Virus record (IMG/VR): IMGVR_UViG_3300006916_000318
Location: 1-26,444 of that record
Direction: 5' to 3' (one strand)
DNA from: a virus
Length of the DNA: 26,444 nt
This document shows, one piece after another, positions 15 through 26,244 of the stretch. A model generated the notes under the pieces. That model made no database searches. It was not told the DNA's origin and saw nothing but the letters and a program-made list of their open reading frames with translations. The position numbers and the translations under genes are program-made. Position 1 is the stretch's first letter. The number at the start of each line of letters is the position of its first letter.

Positions 15-377
15 ATGAAGATTGCTGTAGATAGTTTTGGTAGGCGCGGAGTGCCTGCTGCACAACGTCTGGAGAGAAAAGCAGTAAAAACGTTAATACG
101 AGATATGAACGCTGAAGCTCAAAAGTTGACAGACGAGCAAAGACAGCTACCGCTCGCGCAACAAGAAAGCATTATTGCTGCCAATCTGGCGAGTAGATAC
201 GACAAAGACAAACTTGTTGGCCTAGAGGCAGCATTGGATCAACACGGAAAGTATCTAAGAAGCGTGTTTGGATCGCGGGGAACAGATAGATATGACTCAG
301 CACTTGAGCAGTATTTACAAGAATTCCCTCATTTGAACTCGAACTTGTTCACTGAAAATGTTGCACCAAACTACTAA
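15..377 (+). CDS. Unknown 120-aa protein upstream of the giant protein
   Basis: I do not recognise this family. The protein is mostly helical and charged, with basic stretches near residues 10-30 and a Gln/Ala-rich middle; there is no signal peptide or membrane segment. Its stop codon shares one base with the ATG of the giant polyvalent protein (TAATG), so the two are probably translated together. A TAG lies at 10-12, just before its ATG, and could be the end of a further upstream gene. Position in the late block suggests a virion or virion-assembly protein, but that rests on context only. Confidence 0.75.
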   Translation: MKIAVDSFGRRGVPAAQRLERKAVKTLIRDMNAEAQKLTDEQRQLPLAQQESIIAANLASRYDKDKLVGLEAALDQHGKYLRSVFGSRGTDRYDSALEQYLQEFPHLNSNLFTENVAPNY

Positions 378-3300
378 TGGCGACACAAGAAGAGTTTATA
401 CAGGCTTTAATATCTAGGCTTCAGCCTCAAGGTACGCCTGCTGCTCCAACGCAGTTTGACCAACCCGAAAATCTACCGCCTACACAATTTGCGGCTCAAC
501 CGTTTTCAATAGGTCAGCCTCAAGCCGGTAGCCTTGCAGCAGGGTTTGTGCAAGATCAGGCTCCAGCACAACCCTTGATGCCACCTCCTACGCCAGAAGA
601 GCAAGAACGTTTAAACATTTTTGGCGCAGCAGATAGGGCATTCCTTCCTCCACCCCAGCCAGCTTCGGATGAAAGTCAAAACTACTTCATGCAAGTGGGC
701 CGTGGGTTGGGTCGTGGGTTCGCGCAAAGTGGATTGACCCTAGGACAAGGTTTGTTCGCTACAGCCGATGCTGTCACCAATGTTGCTGGCTATGAAGATG
801 CGATAGACCCAGAGACCAGCGAGTTTCTTAAAGGCTTAAATGAAGCTAGAGAAATCGTCGGGTATGAAGAAGGCGCTGTAGGCAAGATGGCTGAAGTCAT
901 AGGCAGCATGGGCACCTTGATTATACCGGGGCTAGGCGTTGCGGGAGCAGCAAGGGGCGCGTTGGCAGCGCAAGCGGCTGGCAGGGTAGAAGCAGCCAGA
1001 AGGTTGAAGAATCTAGGATACGGATTGCGCGGCCTGACGGGCGTTGTGGCTTCAGGCACTGGTGCTGGCACCGCGAACCAAATGTTGGAGGCGTATGCCA
1101 AGGCTGGGAATGACGTTACTAACGCACAACGTAACCTGTCTACAGCCTTTGGTTTAGGTATTGGCCTTACAGAATTACTGCCACTAGAAATTCTGTTACG
1201 AGGTATACCCGCCTCACTGGGTAGAAACGTAACAAATAGGTATGCGGTCAGGGCGGCACAAAACATTACCAATGCTGGTGCCGAAGGCGGTCAGGAAGCT
1301 GTCGCAGGCATCATGCAGGAGCTTGCAGCGCAAGGTAACTATAACCCCGACCAGCCGATAGGTGATTCGGCGTTAGCTGACTTTGGTTACGGGTCTGCCG
1401 CTGGCTCCATCATTGATGGCTTGCTAGGCAAGAAGTTCCGATTACCCAAGACTGAAAAGGCGCTGTCCGAGGATTACCAGAAGACAGAGGCACTGCAACC
1501 CCTCACCGAAGAAGAGCTTTCTGAGATACAGCGCAAAGAAGAAGACATTGCGTATTATGACGATGAAGGTAATCAGCAGGGCGGTCAGGTCGTAGGGTTC
1601 GATGATGACACTGTGACGCTATCTGTTGATGATGATCTCATCACCCTGCCTCGAAATCAGATGCCAGACCCAGACACAGGCAACTCCTTTGCATCTGATG
1701 CCGATTTGCTTACACCCCGATTCAAGATAGACGGTGAAGAAATAGGCGCAATGACTTTGCCTGATGTCGTTGATCTCAGGAACAAAGAGCTTTTGCCGGA
1801 TACGCTACGAGCAGAGGTAGATGCAGGCAACATAAGCCTAGAAAAAGCTATCGAGATGGCTAAGACCGATGACCAGCAACTCGTAGCCACCGTAACGCCT
1901 GACAAGAAATATCGCATCAAGGCGCTCACGCAAGAAATCAATCGTCGTGATCCAGAGTTCAACGCTTCTCTTTCAGAGGAAGCAGCAGACCAACAGTCTA
2001 GGGCAGCAGCCGGGGTCGATATAGATAGCGGTGAGTTCGGTGATGACCTAGATGCCAGTTTAAACGCAAGGGTAAGCCCATCGCTTACAGACACGGTTGT
2101 TGGTCGGACAGTTGGCGGGACTGTTGATCCGAGCATAGTCGGCAAAGATGCGCTCGATAAAGCGTTTAAAGCTGCTGGTGTCTCCAAGAAAGACCGAGCC
2201 ACCTATTACGAGGAAGTCGAAGCAAGTCCAGACGCTGCATTCGATAGTCTTAGTCAGGAACAAGTCGTTGGGCTTCTCGAAAGGGCATCAAGGCACAAAG
2301 AACGCAAAGCTGAAGAGAAGAGGGCGCAGAAAGAGCGAGAGGCACAAGCGGCTACAGAAGAGCAGATTCAGCTTAAAGCGCAAGAGATAGAAGCTGCAAA
2401 ACAACAAACGGTAGTTACACCAACGACAGGAGATCAAGCCACTGTCGTTGCAGAAGAGATTGCCGAGACTATCGAAGAGGCTCCTGCACAGCCTGCCCTC
2501 ACAGAGAAACAACAAACTAGAGCAGCTAAGTTCCGTAAACGTCTGGCTGATGCAGAAACACCAATAGACCGTATAAACGCTGCGGTGAGCATGATAACCC
2601 GTGGTCAAACAGATAATAATCCCGAATTGATTGCTGAAGGCGAGGCGGCGTTACGCGCAGCCGAAGCCGAAGGATTTACGATTCAAGAAGGAACGAGAAA
2701 AGGAGACACACGAACTTACAATGAAGACACAAACGCAGGCTTAACTAGAAGGGTATCTCGACAAAATACTCCTAATGACGGCGACATTGAAACAATAGAG
2801 AGCGTTCAAAAAGTAGGAATAATAAAAGATGGACGGTTGGTTCAAGTTTCACAAGCAACTACTAGTTATAAATCTCCACAACCAGAAGAAACACAAATAA
2901 CCCCAGAGCCAGAGGTTGTAGTAGAAGAAGCACCTGCGCCCGTAGGCTTTCAATCTAAAACTGTTGAGGACTCTAAGCCACGATATAGAAATGTAACGCC
3001 TGTATTTAACTCTTTGCTCGATAAAGCTCTGTACATAGTAGGCAACCCTAAGAGCAAATCTAAAGCCGATGAGCAGGTAATGGGTGAGCTTAGGTCATTC
3101 TTGCAGCAAAAAGCGCCCGATTTAGAAGATGCAAACATCCGTAGACTAGGGATGGCTGTACGAGATAATGTCAAGTATCAAGGCGAAATAGCTCGGAAAG
3201 CGGAACGATCAAGTTTCGAGGTGCAAGAGCAGGTATTGCCTGACGTTGACCTTTCTTCTCCAGACTTAATCGAATCAATACTAGATCGCTATCAAAAGCC

Positions 3301-6300
3301 AGCGGCTGATACCGAGCCTACTGCGTCTAAGCCTGTAAAGCCCACACTCCCCAAGACAGAACAGGTTGTTGCAACTCCGAAAGAAAAAGCAGATCTGAGA
3401 GAAGCCATAGGCGTGATGGCTGGCGATAACGCGAAAGCAATAAAGCTAGGAACCGAAGCATATCAACGCCGTCGAGATCAGGGTGAGAGCCACGAAGAAG
3501 CATTAGATGCGTTTGCACAAGATCCAGACTTTCAAGACGCTGCTTTAGACTTTGCCCGTAGAGAGCAGGGTGCAGAGCAAGTATCTCCGGGGCCGGTGGT
3601 CGGAATCGCTGGCACACAAACAGCCCCCGGCGTTCCGGGCATGTTGGTTCAAAAGCAAGGGCCACCGATTGACATCAACACAATCCGACGAATCAGGAAG
3701 ATTGTTAACGATGTAGCGCCCACATCAGATCTTGTTGTAGCCAGCCAGTTATATGGTCAGGTGGTCGATAGAGATGGCGATGTGCAATACGTCATCAACG
3801 GCAACGAGGTTAATTACGAGCAGGCTCTTGGTCTCCAGATGGGCAACATCGTCGGCGTATCTGTAGCGCCAGATGCCGTGATAGACCCAGAAAATAGGGC
3901 TTATCACGAGGCCACACACTTCCTTGTCAACAATGGCTTTATAACAGAGCCAGAGATGAGGTCGCTGATCGCTAACATCCCAAGGCTAGAGCAGATCGTC
4001 CTCGAACATCTGGGCCAGAAGCGATATAAAGAAGCTATGTCGGGCAATGAGTTCCAGAAGTTCAACGAGCTAATTGCATATGGATCAGCTCTATACAACA
4101 GGGGCTTAGATATAGATGGCAAGGTGCCAAAAGAGTTTAACCCTGCGCTACGCCGCATCTTCGCCAAGATTGCTAGACTGTTTAAACAGCTTAGATCCAA
4201 CTTTACTGGTGAATTTGTACCAATGGAGGTGGAGCAGGTCTTCGAGCAGATCCGTCAAGGTAGAACAGGACGCAGAGCGCCAGACCCACAGGCTACACAG
4301 CGCGTCAAACAGGCGATGCTTAAAGAAGATCCAACGGGTCTGAGCGCAGCGACACCTCTGTTTGTTATAAAGCAAGGCCCAGTTGCAGCTAGTTCATCCT
4401 TTGAAAACTTCAGAGGTGAAGTTCCCGCCAGACCAGCATTCAAGTCTGCGATGAAGACCAAGTTAGAAGGCATGACAGGCCAGAAGAAGCTGCCTGATGC
4501 TTGGGGAAGGGTTGAAGGCAATCGGGTGGTAGGCGCGTTGTCTGGCGTGAAAGTAGAAGAATGGAACGATTCAAACATAGAGGCATTCCTTACCAGCTTG
4601 CCTCCAGATAAATCAGTAAGCGGTCAAGAGCTTCTGGATTATTTCAACGACATCGAGCAAGTCGTTGAGATAGTTGTATATGGCTCTCCGCTTGGGCCTA
4701 AGAACGACTCAGACTCAGAGATAAAGTATCGTTCCGCTATACAAGAGGATCGTAATAACCAAGGTTACATAGCGACAGCTAACGATGCGATGACTTCTTT
4801 GCGAACTGGAAAAGGCAAAGACGTTGTAAATGCAATGCAAGTAGCAAATCTAACCCGCAAAGAGGTTCCAAACAAAGACGATATAAATCCTGCATATCCA
4901 CCTGATGTTGTCGATGCCCTAGAGAGCTACGCCGAAGCACTTAAAAAGCAAGATGCTTCATTTGACGATTTGCCTGACCCGATCCAAGAAAAGCAAAGGC
5001 TCATTACCGCATTGCAAAAATCGTTTAAACGAGATGGCACTTCATTGGATCAAAAGGCTTTCGGACTTACCTTGGTAGAAGCAAGCGTTAAGCCGGGATT
5101 CCAGTTTACTAGGGAGGCGGGTGAAATGCTTCCTGCTGGATTTAGTATGGACGATGGTGATTTGCCATTACAGAGAGGGGCGGGAACGGGTAGCGCATAC
5201 GGAACCGAGATATCCGATATACCTAACTTTTATTTCGCATGGACGACGATGGGCGGTAGGGCGATCTCAGCAGGTTCCCCTCGTAGCGGGATGAATTTAC
5301 AGCAAGACTACGGATATAGAGAAATAATAATCGCAGCGCCAAGTATGGCGGGTGATGGAACTTATCACAGTCACTTTCCTGACATTCGCAATCCAATAAT
5401 GCACATGCGTCTTGCCGATATTATTTTAGAGAACGGCGAGTCTGTATTGGTGATCGAGGAAATACAGTCTGATGTTCATCAGGGTGCAGCAGAACTAATG
5501 AAGCGAATGGCTGCAAAGAAGTTGTTTGAGGATGGCGCAATATCAGATAGCAGATTCAAGTTTCTGAACAGAGACCAAAAGAACTTAGTAAGAGAAGCTG
5601 CCTCTCAATTTAAAGATGATGTGTACGGCAAGGTATTTCCTAACCTGCCTCTCAAGAATGAAAATCAGCGGATAGCTTTTGCCATGCAGCAGATTACACG
5701 CATGGCAATAAACGGTGGGTATGACCATATCGCTGTGAGCAATAGCGAGCTACAAGTAGAGCGTTATAAAGACGAATACAAGGCTGCTATTGATGGCTTG
5801 GTGATGACGCAAGTTGCAGATGTCGGCGTGGATTCTGACGCTTTTGGTGTCCTCGCTGGGCAGGAAAATGTTTTTGCTGTCAATACAGAGCAAGGAACAT
5901 TCGAGGTATCAGAGACAGATGTTCGTATGGAGCTAGAGTCTTTGATTGAGCAGGACATATTAGCGCCTGCGTTTCCAGATCCATTTACTGGCTCTTTCCC
6001 TACACAAGAACAACTCACTGGCGAGGTCGCACCACAGGAAATCCAACGAGACCAAGAGGCTATAGATCAGGCTAAGGAAAATTCAGAAGACTCAGCAAGG
6101 AAAAGCGTAGCTCAAATTCTTGCTTTTGCTGCACAAAGAGGAAACCTGTCAGGATTCAGGGCTGCTTCTGCAAGGGCGGCAGATGCTGCATTGCAAGAAA
6201 CAGTCGATGTAGACGGGTTGGATGCGATTAAGCTGGCGTTTATGAAGGCGCTTCTCAAAGCTAACCCAGATATGCCTTCGTCATGGCTTGCCACCTACAC

Positions 6301-9300
6301 AACACCCGTTGTTGGCATGAATAATCAAGGCCAAACAGTCAGAGGTAATTTTCAAAGACAGACAATCGAGCTAGGCAATCAAGGCGTTACAAGATCTGGC
6401 AACCCAAGGCTAGATGATTGGTTGGGTGAAGATGTTGCTCTGTTAGTCCGTAATGACCTACAAAATCCAGAAACTGTATCAGACCAATTTGCTTCTCGAA
6501 ATTTTGTGCAGTTTATACAAAACAAAATTGCACAATCTCAAACACAAAAAGAACGTTTAAACGCTGGAGACAACGAACTTACATCTTATCAAAGGTCTGA
6601 GGCTGAGTTGATGGATGTGGACAGCATTCAAAGGTCGGTCAACAGATTTACAGGCGCGATAGATGTGCCTGTTGGCGGTGGATTCGATAACGTGTACGAC
6701 GAAAAGATACCCAGAGCTTTAGAGTCTGCGTTAGCTAGTCTAATTTCTACATCGAAAAGCCAACTCAAATCTAAGCGTCGAAGCGTAAGGCAAGATAATG
6801 AGGGCCAGCGCCTTTATCTAGGGTCGGGTCACTCGTTAGCTGCCGATATTGATGAGCAAGGTAGCCAAATATCAGCCGAGTTGTCTGATGAGATTCTTAT
6901 AGAAGAGTCTCAAATCGTGTCTGCCGATCAAGTGCAGTCAATGCCTCAAAGAGCGAGGTATGTGGGAGATGAATTTACAACGGAAGGTCAGGCGTTAGCG
7001 CAGGCAATAGGAGAAGACCCTTCAATGTTGCAGTTGGTGGGGGAGCAGGCTCAAGTAGATCCTGATACACCAGATCTTGCTGTTGAGGCGGAAGACGTGA
7101 GCCAGCGTTTTATGATCCCTGTATCTAACAGCCGTAATGCTTTGCGCGTTTACACGCTCACCCCGGAGATGGAAGCCTCGCCCAAAGTCCTCCAGCCTAG
7201 TGATATTTACTTCGCCAAATTGCAGAACGAAAGGGCCGAGGTGACTAATCACGGCACTGAGCAGCTACGCGGTGTGGCTAAGAACGCTAGGCAAAAGGCA
7301 GTCGATTACATCAACGGCATGCCATTCTTTAACACGCTTAAAGGATTGCCACAGAAGCGGGAGTTTTACCTAGAGCGAGCGAAGTATCTTGGCGTGGTAC
7401 AAGCATCCTCTGAGATAGGCACTGTGCTGCGTGACGAGATAGGCAATCAGTTCTTATTCAGGAAGGGTGACAAGAACAGGGGCGCTACAGAGACCCTGAG
7501 AACGTCGATTTTTAATTACATGACCACAGGTGACGCATCACAAGAACAAGCGTTACTGGAGCAGCTAGAAGCCTTAGACCCTAGGGCCGCTAAAGCCTCT
7601 GCAAAAGCTAAGGATATGATCGAAAGCCTAGGCTTGCAGATGGTGCAGAATGGTTTGATGGCACCCAAGACATTCTACGAGAATCGTAGGTCTTATCTGC
7701 CTCGAATATACCTCAAGCACCTATTACAAGATCCGAATCCAGAACGCTTTGGCTATCTGAAGAGAAGGAACGAGGAGCTTACGCCAGAAGATCAAGAGGC
7801 TCTGGGTGTCATCAACGAGCTAGACCCTGCATTCCTTGTGTCGCAAGCCATACAAAGACCGATCAGAGATCTACAGTTTATAGAGTTTATGAACTCGATA
7901 GCGGGTAACAACGCTTGGACGGTAGAAGATGACGTTCTGATGGTGAAGTACACAGACGTTAATGGTAATGAACAAGAGCAGAGTGGTTTATATTTGCTGG
8001 ATCAAGTGGCAACGCTGCGTCAGATAGCTGATGCGGTAGAAGCAGCCGATCCAAACAAGGCAGCAACCTTGCGGCGACAGGCGGAAGAGCTAGATCAAAC
8101 GGTGATTAAGACATTCACCGAGCGCGACATCATGGAGTATTACAACGAGCCTAACCGGGATGTAACCGGGGACACTCAGGGTTATGGTGCTGCGTTTAAA
8201 CGAGTTCCAAGAGGTAAGCAGTATGGCATGTTGTCTGGCAGGCTTGTCAGATCAGAGATATACGACAACGTAATCTCATCTGGATTCATGTTGAACCTTG
8301 GCGATCAGTCATACGTCAATATAGGTAGTAAAGGCAGGAAGCTGACCGCTATCTGGAAGACCATCAAGGTGCCTCTCAACCCACCCACGATTGCGCGTAA
8401 CACGTTCAGTAACGCGATCCTTATCCATCTATCGGGTGTCCCATTCTACCGTGTGTTGCCACGCATGATTGAAGCCACCCGCGAGATAGTTGCTTACAAC
8501 AACGGCGACTTCGCTAATGCCAAGCACTATCAAGAGATGCTGGCTCGTGGTGTAAAGCAGTCATCGTTTACAGATCAAGAGCTTGTCGCCATGCAAGATG
8601 ACATGCTCGACTTCTTAAAGTCTGTAGATGCAAAAGACTTAGGGTTGTTTGGCTGGTTGAAGCTCAACACATGGCAGCGGTTGGCACAGAAGGCCAGTAA
8701 TATCTATCAAGGCATTGAGGTGGTGGGTAAAACAGCCATCGCCATTGATGTCATGGATCGTCAAGGCGGCAGTGCAGACGATGCCTTTTTGAGAGCGCAG
8801 GAATACCTGTTCGATTACGGTGATGTGCCGGATGTTGTCAGAGGATTACGGCAAAGCCCACTGGGTATTCCGTTCCTGACGTTCCAATACAAGGTGCTGC
8901 CGGTACTAGCAAAGACTGCACTGCGTAACCCTATGCGATTCGCCCCTTATGTGGCGCTTTCGTATGCGCTGCCAGCACTGTTTATGAATGCTTTCGACAT
9001 AGACGATGATGATTATGATGAGATCAAGGCATCCATGCCCGATTACATCAGAGGCAATCCGGGTCTGATACCGTTGCCAGCCAGAGATGCCGAGGGCAGG
9101 TTACAGTTCTTGGATACATCTTACTTATATCCTTGGGGGTCGTTCACCAATCTCATCAATGGGGCTTTTGTCAGCGGCAAGAAAGCGGTTGGGGCAGGAA
9201 CACCGTTAGAGCAGGGCATTCAGCTTAAAGATATTTCAAGCACACTTGGCATGTTCGGTGGCCCCGGCTGGTCGCTGTACGACATAAGCCAAAACAGAGA

Positions 9301-9832
9301 CTCGTTTACAGATAGGCCCATCGTTAATCCGACTGATCCACTGTATATCAAGGAAGCTATCGAAAGACCTTTTTATAACAGAGGTAAGATCACCGATGCG
9401 ATGTTCTGGGCAGCGAATCAATACTTGTTGCCGGGGTTCTTGAACACAGAATACGGCGCGGTTTCTAAAATCAACACTGCGTTGAAGGGTGATAGCAAAC
9501 CAAATGGAGTCGCACCAGATACTCTTAATCAATCTATGTTCCGAATGCTTGGTTTAAACGCGATCACTCTTGACCCCGACCAGATACGTCTTTCGTTGCA
9601 GTATCTGGATAGAGAAGAAAGTCAAATCAAAACGGGTATCAACCGTCTGAAAAGAGATAAGACGTTATCCAGACCAGAAAAGAACAGGAGGATTAACGCA
9701 CACTTCCAGACGTTGGAGCGATATAGACTGCAACGCAAGGCTATTATCGAAGCAGCAGCCACCACAAATCGAGTCACCAATAAGCTCAGAATACGAGATG
9801 AAAGAAAAGCTAGGGAGGGGAATCGACCATGA
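377..9832 (+). CDS. Giant polyvalent protein (3151 aa) with zincin, EIQSD-type and LPD38-like regions
   Basis: This resembles the large polyvalent proteins of phages and conjugative elements, which are carried in the particle and thought to enter the host with the DNA. Order seen: Pro/Gln-rich tail (1-100); Gly/Ala-rich, partly hydrophobic region (110-350) with GSMGTLIIPGLGVAG; a small acidic beta-like segment (about 385-430); a charged coiled-coil stretch (about 638-675); a zinc peptidase motif HEATH at 1177-1181; a segment like known polyvalent-protein modules (about 1370-1480, GQELLDYF); a region with EEIQSDVHQ near 1693-1702, preceded by YREIIIA and followed by GGYDHIAVSN; a helical module with RRSYLPRIYL; and a C-terminal region from about 2660 with NPPTIARNTFSNAIL and FDYGDVPDVVRGLR, like LPD38. 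Some C-terminal segments are hydrophobic (APYVALSYALPALFMNAF). Seven GTTTAAAC sites lie inside. The gene ends in an ATGA overlap with the holin. Individual domain functions are inferred from family resemblance. Confidence 0.9.
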   Translation: MATQEEFIQALISRLQPQGTPAAPTQFDQPENLPPTQFAAQPFSIGQPQAGSLAAGFVQDQAPAQPLMPPPTPEEQERLNIFGAADRAFLPPPQPASDESQNYFMQVGRGLGRGFAQSGLTLGQGLFATADAVTNVAGYEDAIDPETSEFLKGLNEAREIVGYEEGAVGKMAEVIGSMGTLIIPGLGVAGAARGALAAQAAGRVEAARRLKNLGYGLRGLTGVVASGTGAGTANQMLEAYAKAGNDVTNAQRNLSTAFGLGIGLTELLPLEILLRGIPASLGRNVTNRYAVRAAQNITNAGAEGGQEAVAGIMQELAAQGNYNPDQPIGDSALADFGYGSAAGSIIDGLLGKKFRLPKTEKALSEDYQKTEALQPLTEEELSEIQRKEEDIAYYDDEGNQQGGQVVGFDDDTVTLSVDDDLITLPRNQMPDPDTGNSFASDADLLTPRFKIDGEEIGAMTLPDVVDLRNKELLPDTLRAEVDAGNISLEKAIEMAKTDDQQLVATVTPDKKYRIKALTQEINRRDPEFNASLSEEAADQQSRAAAGVDIDSGEFGDDLDASLNARVSPSLTDTVVGRTVGGTVDPSIVGKDALDKAFKAAGVSKKDRATYYEEVEASPDAAFDSLSQEQVVGLLERASRHKERKAEEKRAQKEREAQAATEEQIQLKAQEIEAAKQQTVVTPTTGDQATVVAEEIAETIEEAPAQPALTEKQQTRAAKFRKRLADAETPIDRINAAVSMITRGQTDNNPELIAEGEAALRAAEAEGFTIQEGTRKGDTRTYNEDTNAGLTRRVSRQNTPNDGDIETIESVQKVGIIKDGRLVQVSQATTSYKSPQPEETQITPEPEVVVEEAPAPVGFQSKTVEDSKPRYRNVTPVFNSLLDKALYIVGNPKSKSKADEQVMGELRSFLQQKAPDLEDANIRRLGMAVRDNVKYQGEIARKAERSSFEVQEQVLPDVDLSSPDLIESILDRYQKPAADTEPTASKPVKPTLPKTEQVVATPKEKADLREAIGVMAGDNAKAIKLGTEAYQRRRDQGESHEEALDAFAQDPDFQDAALDFARREQGAEQVSPGPVVGIAGTQTAPGVPGMLVQKQGPPIDINTIRRIRKIVNDVAPTSDLVVASQLYGQVVDRDGDVQYVINGNEVNYEQALGLQMGNIVGVSVAPDAVIDPENRAYHEATHFLVNNGFITEPEMRSLIANIPRLEQIVLEHLGQKRYKEAMSGNEFQKFNELIAYGSALYNRGLDIDGKVPKEFNPALRRIFAKIARLFKQLRSNFTGEFVPMEVEQVFEQIRQGRTGRRAPDPQATQRVKQAMLKEDPTGLSAATPLFVIKQGPVAASSSFENFRGEVPARPAFKSAMKTKLEGMTGQKKLPDAWGRVEGNRVVGALSGVKVEEWNDSNIEAFLTSLPPDKSVSGQELLDYFNDIEQVVEIVVYGSPLGPKNDSDSEIKYRSAIQEDRNNQGYIATANDAMTSLRTGKGKDVVNAMQVANLTRKEVPNKDDINPAYPPDVVDALESYAEALKKQDASFDDLPDPIQEKQRLITALQKSFKRDGTSLDQKAFGLTLVEASVKPGFQFTREAGEMLPAGFSMDDGDLPLQRGAGTGSAYGTEISDIPNFYFAWTTMGGRAISAGSPRSGMNLQQDYGYREIIIAAPSMAGDGTYHSHFPDIRNPIMHMRLADIILENGESVLVIEEIQSDVHQGAAELMKRMAAKKLFEDGAISDSRFKFLNRDQKNLVREAASQFKDDVYGKVFPNLPLKNENQRIAFAMQQITRMAINGGYDHIAVSNSELQVERYKDEYKAAIDGLVMTQVADVGVDSDAFGVLAGQENVFAVNTEQGTFEVSETDVRMELESLIEQDILAPAFPDPFTGSFPTQEQLTGEVAPQEIQRDQEAIDQAKENSEDSARKSVAQILAFAAQRGNLSGFRAASARAADAALQETVDVDGLDAIKLAFMKALLKANPDMPSSWLATYTTPVVGMNNQGQTVRGNFQRQTIELGNQGVTRSGNPRLDDWLGEDVALLVRNDLQNPETVSDQFASRNFVQFIQNKIAQSQTQKERLNAGDNELTSYQRSEAELMDVDSIQRSVNRFTGAIDVPVGGGFDNVYDEKIPRALESALASLISTSKSQLKSKRRSVRQDNEGQRLYLGSGHSLAADIDEQGSQISAELSDEILIEESQIVSADQVQSMPQRARYVGDEFTTEGQALAQAIGEDPSMLQLVGEQAQVDPDTPDLAVEAEDVSQRFMIPVSNSRNALRVYTLTPEMEASPKVLQPSDIYFAKLQNERAEVTNHGTEQLRGVAKNARQKAVDYINGMPFFNTLKGLPQKREFYLERAKYLGVVQASSEIGTVLRDEIGNQFLFRKGDKNRGATETLRTSIFNYMTTGDASQEQALLEQLEALDPRAAKASAKAKDMIESLGLQMVQNGLMAPKTFYENRRSYLPRIYLKHLLQDPNPERFGYLKRRNEELTPEDQEALGVINELDPAFLVSQAIQRPIRDLQFIEFMNSIAGNNAWTVEDDVLMVKYTDVNGNEQEQSGLYLLDQVATLRQIADAVEAADPNKAATLRRQAEELDQTVIKTFTERDIMEYYNEPNRDVTGDTQGYGAAFKRVPRGKQYGMLSGRLVRSEIYDNVISSGFMLNLGDQSYVNIGSKGRKLTAIWKTIKVPLNPPTIARNTFSNAILIHLSGVPFYRVLPRMIEATREIVAYNNGDFANAKHYQEMLARGVKQSSFTDQELVAMQDDMLDFLKSVDAKDLGLFGWLKLNTWQRLAQKASNIYQGIEVVGKTAIAIDVMDRQGGSADDAFLRAQEYLFDYGDVPDVVRGLRQSPLGIPFLTFQYKVLPVLAKTALRNPMRFAPYVALSYALPALFMNAFDIDDDDYDEIKASMPDYIRGNPGLIPLPARDAEGRLQFLDTSYLYPWGSFTNLINGAFVSGKKAVGAGTPLEQGIQLKDISSTLGMFGGPGWSLYDISQNRDSFTDRPIVNPTDPLYIKEAIERPFYNRGKITDAMFWAANQYLLPGFLNTEYGAVSKINTALKGDSKPNGVAPDTLNQSMFRMLGLNAITLDPDQIRLSLQYLDREESQIKTGINRLKRDKTLSRPEKNRRINAHFQTLERYRLQRKAIIEAAATTNRVTNKLRIRDERKAREGNRP

Positions 9833-13414: not shown

Positions 13415-13706
13415 ATCCCTTTCCTTCGTTGCGTTTAAACATTTCTATCCATGTAAGTGGGTCAATGCCTTCCATCGCCCACCACCTTTTCTCATTGCCA
13501 TAAGCATGTAGGTGCCTGTGGTGGTCATCGCAGAGCGGGACTGCGTGTTGATCTCCGCTTCGCCTCATACCGCGCAACCCATCATCCTCAACAAATGTGA
13601 GGTGGTGTGCCTGCGCGGGGCGATAGCAAACCAAACAGCCATGCTCTCGTACCAGTTGCAGATACTTCCTGCTTCGTAGCTTCTTAGCCCAAGTCTTTTG
13701 TTTCAA
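13353..13706 (-). CDS. HNH nuclease, Ref/DUF968-like (117 aa)
   Basis: The core has CLVC (about 24-27), AHHLTFVEDDG (33-43), the nuclease segment HAVPLCDDHHRHLHAYG (54-70) and WWAMEGID, an order seen in phage recombination-associated HNH proteins such as P1 Ref and DUF968. It would bind a metal and nick or cut DNA. The only start after the in-frame stop is a TTG at 13706, with a 23-base overlap into the previous gene. The tail is very acidic (EESTEDSTEEEILQDEE), as if for contact with a partner; it overlaps the next gene, and the MFKRNEG codons contain the GTTTAAAC leader of that gene. Confidence 0.85.
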   Translation of the reverse strand: MKQKTWAKKLRSRKYLQLVREHGCLVCYRPAQAHHLTFVEDDGLRGMRRSGDQHAVPLCDDHHRHLHAYGNEKRWWAMEGIDPLTWIEMFKRNEGKGYDPEESTEDSTEEEILQDEE

Positions 13707-21139: not shown

Positions 21140-21181
21140 AGCAGCTCCTTGTTGCGTTTAAACATTTTCAAAATTAGGGGG

Positions 21182-22152: not shown

Positions 22153-22216
22153 GTCGTTTTCCTTGTTGCGTTTAAACGGCTTGTCTCATCAGTGCGCCGG
22201 TAGCCAACCGACACAG

Positions 22217-22231
22217 ACCGCCAGAGGCGGT
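22217..22231. other. Perfect hairpin ACCGCC-AGA-GGCGGT
   Basis: A GC-rich 6-bp stem with a 3-base loop five bases beyond the stop of the 69-aa gene. On the plus strand TT follows; on the operon (minus) strand there is no T-run. It may weaken read-through or protect an RNA end within the operon. Confidence 0.4.
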
Positions 22232-22236
22232 TTCGA

Positions 22237-22446
22237 CTATGTTTCCAAAGACGCTCCGGTATCGAGATCCCACTGATCCACTAGCTTGTAATAAATCTTC
22301 GCAAGGTGTTTGCGCTTCGCTCGATTGAAGGATGGGGTCTCAATGTATGGGTTGTGATCCACATCCTGTTTCGCCATTTGCTCTAGCAGGTGTAAGAGTT
22401 CGCCTCGCGCTGCGTCGAGGGGGGTTTCGTTGTAGTGATTACGCAT
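22237..22446 (-). CDS. Unknown small helical protein (69 aa)
   Basis: Helical, with LDAARGELLHLLEQMAKQD and FNRAKRKHLAKIYYKLVDQW; no family recognised. The ATG follows CGCAACAAGGAG by six bases. No GTTTAAAC in the leader, where GTGTGTAAC-like sequence stands instead. Confidence 0.7.
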   Translation of the reverse strand: MRNHYNETPLDAARGELLHLLEQMAKQDVDHNPYIETPSFNRAKRKHLAKIYYKLVDQWDLDTGASLET

Positions 22447-24681: not shown

Positions 24682-25290
24682 CTAGTCAGCGACTAGCGTT
24701 CCGGCGAGGTGACATGCTGGGCATGTTGACTCGGGGGTAATCTTCGATTGCCACTTGGCTGACACTCTGGCGGTGAAGCCGCAGTCACTGCATTGCAGTT
24801 TGAGCATACGAGTGCCTTGCTTCTTGCGAAGCGATGGGTCGATCTTGGCATGGGGGTAAACCCCCAAGATGTCAGCGATCTCGGCCAGTGTGTCCAGCAA
24901 AGCTGGTGATGCGGGGGTTTGTGTCATAGGGCCAGTGAAGCCTACGGCTTTGGCGATTCGGGCAAACTCACCTCGGTGACCACATTCGATACCGGCCCAA
25001 ACATGAATAAATTCATGTAGCAGGATACGAAGAACCTCGACGGGTTCATCTATGATGGGGTTGATGCAGACTTCCATAGTTCCATCGGAACTGACACTTG
25101 CATCGAATGCCTGACCTAGCACGACCTTGCCGGTCTTCGACCCACGATACCCGATAGGGAAGCCGCAGGTGACTCGATAGCGTCGTGATTGCCAAGCGTC
25201 GGGTGAGATACCAGCACTGGCAAAGACCATCTCAAACAGTAAAACAAGCGCAGCTTGTAACCATTCTTCTCTAGTAGTGTATGACTGCAT
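24682..25290 (-). CDS. SprT-like zinc metallopeptidase (202 aa)
   Basis: The metallopeptidase core LLHEFIHVWAGIECGHRGEF carries HExxH and a further His about nine residues on, as in SprT/Spartan-type proteins; GEFARIAKAVGF follows. The C-terminus has a zinc ribbon, CSDCGFTARVSAKW with CPACH. Such proteins cut DNA-bound proteins in cells; the phage target is unknown. The ATG at 25290 was chosen because CGCAACAAAGGAG lies seven bases before it; the reading frame extends 27 codons upstream without leader. It is the first gene of the long leftward operon, downstream of the hairpin-rich region. Confidence 0.88.
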   Translation of the reverse strand: MQSYTTREEWLQAALVLLFEMVFASAGISPDAWQSRRYRVTCGFPIGYRGSKTGKVVLGQAFDASVSSDGTMEVCINPIIDEPVEVLRILLHEFIHVWAGIECGHRGEFARIAKAVGFTGPMTQTPASPALLDTLAEIADILGVYPHAKIDPSLRKKQGTRMLKLQCSDCGFTARVSAKWQSKITPESTCPACHLAGTLVAD

Positions 25291-25299
25291 AGCAGTTCT

Positions 25300-25728
25300 C
25301 CTTTGTTGCGATTGATGTAATGAACACAATCGAAAGCATTCTTTGAATGCTCTCTGTTGTATGCACAACATTCGTAAATCTATCGTCTCGTCCAGATAGC
25401 TTCGCTATCCTTCTGGTGCGCCACGGGCCTCATGCCGATCTGCGTTCACACCGAGCCGGTTTACGCCATTGACGATCTTGTTAGCCTCCAGAGTAGATGT
25501 CTCCCGACATCTGGAGGTGACTCCACCGCCCCGACATCCTTTTCCCAAGCCTTCGCAGAATTGCCTTGCACACAATTCCAGCTTGCTACGTCCCGATCCG
25601 CCGTGAGATCGAAACACCGATACCTGATCGGAGGTGGTCTACACCCATTCAGTTGCATAAAGCTGCCGCCCCGCATCCGGTTGACGGTGAGCTGACCTGT
25701 TGAGCGGTCAATCCGTCGATGCCCCACC
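25300..25728 (-). ncRNA. Hairpin-rich region, candidate structured RNA or long 5' leader
   Basis: No convincing gene lies in about 430 bases, but inverted repeats follow each other almost without gap. Examples (plus coordinates): 25335-25351 (AGCATTC/GAATGCT), 25355-25370 (TGTTGT/ACAACA), 25395-25409 (GATAGC/GCTATC), 25485-25517 (CCTCCA and GATGTC stems stacked), 25546-25585 (CAAGC outside, GAATTG inside), 25593-25631 (CCGATC/GATCGG), 25683-25717 (GACGG outside, TGACC inside). Read on the minus strand, loops become GGGA (GNRA type) and GAA closed by C-G, which favours that strand. A promoter-like sequence sits just upstream (25729-25758). It could be a stable non-coding RNA or a leader of the SprT-like gene. 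I do not recognise a known class. Confidence 0.5.
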
Positions 25729-25758
25729 ATTAGGCCCAGCTTTCGTTTAAACTGTCAA
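25729..25758 (-). promoter_or_regulatory. Sigma70-like promoter for the leftward operon or RNA
   Basis: TTGACA (minus strand, 25758-25753), 18-base spacer, CCTAAT (25734-25729, four of six matches to TATAAT). The spacer contains a GTTTAAAC palindrome directly behind the -35 box, which would put a bound protein in the way of polymerase. Transcription would start near 25722, just before the hairpin chain. Confidence 0.5.
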
Positions 25759-25761
25759 CTA

Positions 25762-25797
25762 GTTTTTTCCAACTGGGTTTTTTACCCTAAAGGGTAA
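25762..25797. other. T-tracts and inverted repeat TTACCCT-AA-AGGGTAA
   Basis: On the plus strand two T-runs (25763-25768 and 25778-25783) are followed by a 7-base inverted repeat at 25782-25797. GGG before the second T-run can pair with ACCC after it, an alternative to the ACCC-GGGT pairing. CCCAG at 25735-25739 could pair with CTGGG before the second T-run as a plus-strand terminator. Either a terminator or an operator between the leftward operon and the terminase gene. Confidence 0.4.
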
Positions 25798-25827
25798 GTC
25801 GAGGAGTTTAAACGGGTCGTAGGCGTA

Positions 25828-26244
25828 ATGGGTAAGCAGGTGACGGTGAAGGAGCGCCTATTTGCTAGGTATGTGGCCGAAGGCCGTACACAAGCAGAGA
25901 GTGCGCGTATGGCTGGCTATGCCAGTAATCCAGACAAAAAGGGTAGTGAGTTGGTTAAAAAAGCAGAAGTCGTAGACTTAATCAATCAGCGGGGCGCTGA
26001 ATTAGCCGAGGATCGGGCTGTTTCACTTAGTGAACACCTCGATACACTGGCCGCTTTGCGTGATGATGCGCGAGACGCTGGGCAATATAGCTCTGCTATA
26101 CAGGCCGAGCACCACCGAGGGAAAGCCTCTAGGCTTTATGTGGAGCAGCAGGCGGTGGTTCGTGCTGATGCCGACTCACCTTCGGTGATCTTGGAGCGTT
26201 TAAACGGATTGTTGTCTCGTGATCCCGTCGCAACGCAGGACTGA
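25828..26244 (+). CDS. terS: Small terminase subunit, Terminase_2-like (138 aa)
   Basis: This protein should recognise phage DNA for packaging and bring it to the large terminase subunit. The N-terminal part, KERLFARYVAEGRTQAESAR and MAGYASNPDKKGSELVKKAE, is the helix-turn-helix of the terminase small subunit family; a helical oligomerisation part (SLSEHLDTLAALRDDARDAG, QAEHHRGKASRLYVEQ) follows. The large subunit is expected to the right of the window. The ribosome site is unclear: GAGGAG lies 22 bases before the ATG and is followed by a GTTTAAAC (25806). Another GTTTAAAC lies near the 3' end (26198). Confidence 0.82.
   Translation: MGKQVTVKERLFARYVAEGRTQAESARMAGYASNPDKKGSELVKKAEVVDLINQRGAELAEDRAVSLSEHLDTLAALRDDARDAGQYSSAIQAEHHRGKASRLYVEQQAVVRADADSPSVILERLNGLLSRDPVATQD

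Follow-up and report, generated by a model that had tools for sequence, protein, structure and literature searches.

An octamer iterated across phage genomes is associated with an SprT-like gene and is a candidate operator

Results

A conserved control region between divergent units

The window, by which we mean the whole 26,444-bp stretch of viral DNA analysed, carries two divergent units separated by a short control region (Table 1). To the right lies terS, and to the left a putative promoter is followed by a structured noncoding RNA and, as the first gene after it, that for a 202-aa SprT-like protein. Two copies of the palindrome GTTTAAAC stand between these units at 25745 and 25806, 61 bp apart from start to start, as a sequence-only reading of the region had noted. 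That reading had also taken them for the only close pair, with all other gaps above 320 bases, and the next smallest gap in the window is indeed 322 bp. The left copy, assigned to the spacer of a leftward TTGACA promoter, directly follows the minus-strand TTGACA (25758–25753) and is succeeded by a -10-like box. An automatic promoter scan rejected this promoter, position 2 of the -10 not being A. The T-runs and the inverted repeat TTACCCTAAAGGGTAA were likewise found between the two copies. On the plus strand the T-runs stand before the repeat, so the repeat is not a simple terminator; no terminator-like site was called in 25729–25813, neither strand of the window gives a stem followed by a U-run, and a T-run after the stem occurs only in relatives L102–L104. 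As a control region the interval is conserved and offers a candidate protein site in a promoter spacer, while a terminator role for the T-runs was rejected.

Among 26 related terS loci, the right copy of GTTTAAAC is present in all and both copies in 22. Of the 22 pairs, 18 are spaced at 60–61 bp, three at 73 bp and one at 63 bp. Four loci lack the left copy: L086, with GTTTAAAT in its place, L099, L100 and L101. Where it has shifted by a few bases (L094, L102–L104; also G006), it still lies between the -35 and the -10. The -35 core TGTCAA is kept in 25 loci, L086 having CGTCAA, and in L087–L089 the inverted repeat shows a paired change from ACCC/GGGT to AACC/GGTT that maintains pairing.

Table 1. 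Features of the window and their coordinates.
Feature	Position	Strand	Remarks
GTTTAAAC, 27 further copies	span 609-24666	.	word count in window; starts at 609, 2058, 4180, 5023, 6555, 8194, 9552, 10629, 11145, 11752, 12480, 13433, 14904, 16075, 17431, 18252, 18832, 19154, 19594, 20541, 21156, 21735, 22170, 22676, 23287, 24042, 24659
SprT-like gene, 202 aa	about 24682-25290	-	HExxH zinc-protease fold (predicted) and C-terminal KKQGTR/CxxC...CPAC ribbon
Structured noncoding RNA, ~400 nt	25325-25732, ends approximate	-	possible 3' hairpin 25332-25354
-10-like CCTAAT (CATAGT in relatives), putative	25729-25734	-	18-bp spacer
GTTTAAAC, left copy	25745-25752	.	in -35/-10 spacer of leftward promoter
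-35 box TTGACA, leftward promoter	25753-25758	-	
T-runs	25763-25768 and 25778-25783		
Inverted repeat TTACCCTAAAGGGTAA (TTACCCT-AA-AGGGTAA)	25782-25797	.	hairpin or operator
GTTTAAAC, right copy	25806-25813	.	22 bp before terS
terS, terminase small subunit	25828-26244	+	
GTTTAAAC, within terS end	26198-26205	.	

GTTTAAAC is iterated across the window and conserved as nucleic acid

The window holds 30 copies of GTTTAAAC, as against 0.31 expected from dinucleotide shuffles (largest shuffle count, 2) and 0.25 from a second-order Markov model, and 30 of its 32 TTTAAA hexamers belong to the octamer. Twenty-four copies lie in genes and six in noncoding DNA. The copies lie near one per kb and are spaced more evenly than under random placement (CV 0.53 vs 0.96, P 0.0002), with one gap below 200 bp where 6.0 were expected; such gaps are rare in most long related records, the clear exception being G005 with seven. 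Because the sites are over-regular, a pair only 61 bp apart is genuinely exceptional in the window, although the same gap would be unremarkable under random placement.

Related records of 42–57 kb carry 36–48 sites each, and the pair is two of about 40–48 sites genome-wide rather than a special two-copy switch. The sequence-only reading had envisaged one protein that bridges both copies and coordinates early transcription with packaging. The 60–61-bp spacing in 18 of 22 loci would suit such looping, as would the promoter-flanking pairs of phage Reedo (below); with spacings of 63 or 73 in four loci and the left copy lost from four of 26, we regard it as very doubtful.

Copies are sparser in the gene for a 3151-aa protein (377–9832, plus strand; 7 copies in 9.5 kb) than in the rest of the window. 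On the minus strand, GCAACAAGGAG and a start codon directly follow GTTTAAAC at 21156, 22170, 22676 and 24659, with a variant at 13433, an arrangement that amounts to a start-associated element joining the site and a ribosome-binding site.

The octamer is a trait of the clade to which the window belongs. In clade loci, defined by a primase identity of 59% or more or by terS matches, it is the top palindromic octamer, at ~6–20 copies per 10 kb, and outgroup loci with a primase identity of 41% or less have 0 or 1. Where G003 aligns at 73% nucleotide identity, 16 of 17 sites are kept, compared with 15% of all 8-mers. When both overlapped amino acids are unchanged, the 8-mer is kept in 141 of 154 site comparisons (32% for control 8-mers), and when the two closest records are left out, in 98 of 108 (controls, about 17%). 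This codon-level control rules out amino-acid constraint as the cause of site conservation. Sites that lack GTTTAAAC often keep the amino acids (FK coded TTC AAG), so the constraint acts on the nucleic acid. Over 186 non-redundant sites (from 794 distinct and 1386 raw) the flanks show the symmetric preference YGTTTAAACR, with a weaker preference at distance 5, as would be expected for a symmetric protein site.

A structured RNA downstream of the leftward promoter

The minus strand of 25325–25732 is strongly conserved and noncoding. RNAalifold, applied to 13 distinct relatives, gave a structure of 98 pairs, 30 of them with double changes, in which 97.7% of alignment cells pair. Covariation was 0.268 for this structure, itself derived from the same alignment, vs 0.124 in shuffles (0 of 500) and 0.039–0.055 with partners slid. 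Rfam yielded no match above the gathering score for 25325–25732 or for a relative's RNA. Elsewhere in the window, a hammerhead type II ribozyme-like match of 30.5 bits (gathering 37; E 0.014) lies at 22174–22238 on the minus strand, and the corresponding place in a relative (L105:11382–11446) gives one of 30.6 bits (gathering 37; E 0.0009).

Scanning IMG/VR with a 15-mer of the RNA returned 114 stretches. Of the loci from L134 up, those with further RNA words and an upstream TTGACA are all rich in GTTTAAAC, and the others look like chance matches. In some relatives the gene that follows the RNA is not the same, so the RNA seems to be an independent unit. In the window the leftward promoter would drive the structured RNA and then the SprT-like gene, an arrangement that the sequence-only reading had overlooked.

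The SprT-like protein combines a predicted protease fold with a C-terminal ribbon

Relatives of the SprT-like protein occur in 163 INPHARED records, where depositors mostly annotated them as SprT-like protease. The HExxH motif and a third ligand are represented by HEFIH and GHRGEF in P0001 and are nearly invariant in A2 and A4; the C-terminal part contains KKQxTR plus CxxC/CPxC. Pfam gave no match for the protein, and a sequence search against solved structures returned nothing meaningful. The AlphaFold model (pLDDT 84) was matched best by Foldseek to human SPRTN (6mdw, E 8.9e-5), with a moderate TM of 0.33, and in third place, at lower confidence, to CapP. VIA scored the similarity to 6mdw at Z 7.1, which is under the tool's caution level of 8, and that of the ribbon to MCM or rubredoxin ribbons at a moderate Z of about 4.5.

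The HExxH with a further GH histidine and the zinc-ribbon-like C-terminal part resemble SprT/SPRTN, as, to a moderate degree, does the predicted fold. SPRTN, a crosslink protease, is not known to have a sequence-specific site in the genome. The phage proteins differ from it in that an exact DNA word is associated with them and that some members lack HExxH: the protein at L288:819–1343 has a degenerate HExxH and retains the ribbon. In the L288 cluster of 40 IMG/VR loci, GTTTAAAC is dense, reaching 43 copies per 10 kb among the loci read.

The word and the SprT-like gene occur together in unrelated phages

A pattern of three GTTTAAAC at 255–285-bp gaps matched 67 IMG/VR stretches, many from phage groups that have little in common with the window beyond the SprT-like protein. 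When loci were instead found through the SprT-like gene, 60 of 79 showed enrichment of GTTTAAAC or GTTTACAC at P<1e-4, and none of 116 controls did (primase loci of the outgroup, and loci with the 15-mer but no RNA); at P<0.01, enrichment was seen in 73 of 79. The 79 were the top-ranking ones among at least 592 IMG/VR stretches, L287 having been removed from 80 as already included. Since the peptide patterns used in picking contained the ribbon motif KKQxTR, homologues without a ribbon are under-represented. Taken singly, GTTTAAAC is enriched in 43 of the 79 loci and GTTTACAC in 21, and none of 300 words permuted from these letters is enriched in more than 2. Together with 22 further loci the set falls into 21 coarse nucleotide clusters, of which 18 are enriched.

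The reverse test gave an SprT-like gene in 11 of 13 long dense records and in none of five controls; it was missing from two dense records, one a fragment of 31 kb and the other 235 kb long. Among the 11 matches, one is to the ribbon part alone (G024:39396–39542, alignment positions 146–193), in a 77-aa frame near the record end. SprT is the only widely shared family, found in 76 of 101 sources; the next are terminase (26/101), DNA polymerase and primase.

Cultured phages show the same association. Streptomyces phage Crosby has 34 copies of GTTTACAC in the 44 kb read (0.04 expected), Arthrobacter phage Reedo 28 (0.2), Microbacterium phage Percival 14 (0.03) and phage 4A 13 (0.22). GTTTAAAC occurs nine times in Dinoroseobacter phage R5C (0.02 expected), seven in Burkholderia phage Mica (0.09), six in Escherichia phage Bas97 (0.69) and four in Achromobacter phage Mano (0.14). 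In the two ribbon-less isolates examined, Bordetella CN1 (L346) and Pseudomonas Epa5 (L351), the SprT homologue lacks the ribbon and the word is absent. The motif stays with a degenerate HExxH (L288) and is lost with the ribbon, which makes the ribbon a candidate reader, on few cases. Residues separating the proteins of GTTTAAAC phages from those of GTTTACAC phages could not be singled out, since many columns differ and the differences are confounded with phage group. CN1 and Epa5 carry another iterated word, CCTGGGC (81 vs 19 and 122 vs 19.5 expected), possibly a related system that uses a different word.

Positions of the sites relative to promoters and the SprT-like gene

Of 229 sites in GTTTACAC phages, 73 are close to a TTGCGY -35-like box, where chance would give 9.6. 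In GTTTAAAC phages the excess is small or absent, and sites of the window clade are not enriched near TTGACA (8 vs 5.0). Given this lack of enrichment and the location of only 6 of 30 copies in noncoding DNA, simple promoter operators do not account for most window-clade copies. In the GTTTACAC group the sites are clearly used at promoters; in the window clade such use is local, 25745 being an example.

In Reedo, pairs of GTTTACAC 41 bp apart flank promoters, including that of the SprT gene (32002/32043), and in Percival a copy lies between TTGCGC and TATAGT. Bas97, Mano and Mica have GTTTAAAC 16–20 bp upstream of the SprT gene. A site lies in the 260 bp upstream of 21 of the 75 IMG/VR SprT ORFs counted (10.2 expected) and is missing there from the other 54; of the 79 loci, L356, L377, L418 and L424 were left out because their ORFs begin too close to the end of a contig. 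Forward and reverse copies of GTTTACAC number 16/18 in Crosby, 20/8 in Reedo and 8/6 in Percival, and noncoding sites make up 7/34, 12/28 and 1/14 in isolates.

These positions bear on the possibility that GTTTAMAC, the general form of GTTTAAAC, is a site of DNA metabolism (replication start, packaging, condensation or protein–DNA crosslinking), with the SprT-like protein serving that process and not transcription. Regular spacing near one per kb, the intragenic location of most window-clade sites without promoter enrichment and the SPRTN-like predicted fold all speak for it. Against it, several unrelated phages have sites within promoters and ahead of the SprT gene, and we find it distinctly unlikely.

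Discussion

A model for GTTTAMAC as an operator

The association between gene and word is strong, and we infer both the identity of the reader and an effect on transcription. On balance, GTTTAMAC is probably an operator that is scattered in the manner of stoperators, with the SprT-like protein, or a factor closely linked to it, as the reader. In its simplest form, the SprT-like protein itself would bind GTTTAMAC via its C-terminal ribbon. The site at 25745, between -35 and -10, would then block or modulate the leftward promoter, giving a feedback in which the blocked promoter is the one that makes the structured RNA and then the SprT-like gene; the site at 25806 would act on terS expression, and copies inside genes might serve as stoperator-like roadblocks or anchoring sites. 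More tentatively, ribbon-bearing phage SprT-like proteins may form a novel class of regulators, sequence-specific and genome-wide in reach, which act on their own promoter and on tens of GTTTAMAC sites and, in the clade, control the RNA too, the protease half perhaps ending the block through cleavage of itself or of a partner on a single-stranded DNA signal of replication or damage. The reader could also be a partner outside our lists or a host protein.

With a division of labour, a separate repressor would read GTTTAMAC and the SprT-like protein would be a dedicated protease that cuts this repressor upon DNA damage or exposure of single-stranded DNA. Derepression in the style of PprI–DdrO and CapP–CapH has been published, the crosslink protease SPRTN and CapP were the first and third Foldseek matches, and the window contains an XRE gene and a double-HTH gene that are conserved in the clade, in a set that includes loci taken twice from the same contigs. 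No partner family is common to the sources, however, terminase being the next after SprT, and the motif persists without HExxH and is missing without the ribbon; we consider this arrangement unlikely. As readers in their own right, the XRE and double-HTH proteins were rejected: their recognition helices vary in the clade while the site is constant, apart from one conserved SRQYVY-like helix of the double-HTH protein, and neither protein is shared by phages beyond this clade.

Should the SprT-like protein be the reader, a DNA-repair protease fold would be performing sequence-specific gene control across many phage lineages. In either case, a widespread phage protein family without a known role (163 INPHARED records and at least 592 IMG/VR stretches) is tied to an exact DNA word, and because of this link its function is testable in phages of E. 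coli, Arthrobacter and Streptomyces. The window region adds a new structured RNA, which under the operator model would be subject to SprT-linked control.

Relation to known systems

Repressor/stoperator systems of the L5 type, known also from Streptomyces phage R4, have tens of short identical sites across the genome, one of them upstream of the regulator gene; the L5 sites are asymmetric 13-mers, oriented with transcription and mostly in short intergenic gaps, and their reader is a two-domain HTH-type repressor (PMC9283540, PMC6550527, PMC10276819). The sites described here are similar in that tens of identical short copies extend over one phage genome, in promoters and elsewhere. They differ in that the window site is an 8-bp palindrome with symmetric flanks, the actinophage GTTTACAC being asymmetric but also 8 bp; in that no clear orientation is apparent (GTTTACAC is mixed, and for a palindrome orientation is undefined); and in that they lie mostly in genes (24/30 in the window) and are linked to an SprT-like protein. 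By analogy, the link of a putative zinc protease to transcription control recalls CapP–CapH, PprI–DdrO and ImmA–ImmR, in contrast to which no widely shared HTH partner was found within 10 kb, a distance beyond which a partner is possible. In the excerpts of phage literature on GTTTAAAC or GTTTACAC we found no link to such a system, and the consulted parts of PMC8758107 and PMC7824862 name SprT-like phage genes without any motif.

INPHARED contained no close relative by megablast of window positions 1–25000 and two dense contigs, or by tblastn with terS. A scan of bacterial genomes for a prophage or host with a large terminase pattern returned 17 stretches, none of them a relative.

HIP1, the highly iterated palindrome of cyanobacteria, is likewise a hyper-abundant palindromic octamer. 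GTTTAAAC differs from it in being phage-specific in the scans made, positionally conserved and tied to one gene. The occurrence of motif and gene in phages of very different hosts would fit a reader of host origin, a DNA-binding protein found in many bacteria and countered or used by the SprT-like protein. Such a reader is highly improbable, as the triple-pattern scan found no host genome with scattered GTTTAAAC, the hosts span actinobacteria to E. coli, and phage groups differ from one another by one base in the word. This one scan gave no sign of an iterated palindrome in host genomes: its 33 matches, judged by spacing, are CRISPR arrays (period of about 72 bp) or protein repeats. In cyanobacterial and other genomes (L246, L253, L274 and others), GTTTAAAC recurs every ~72 bp, apparently in CRISPR repeats.
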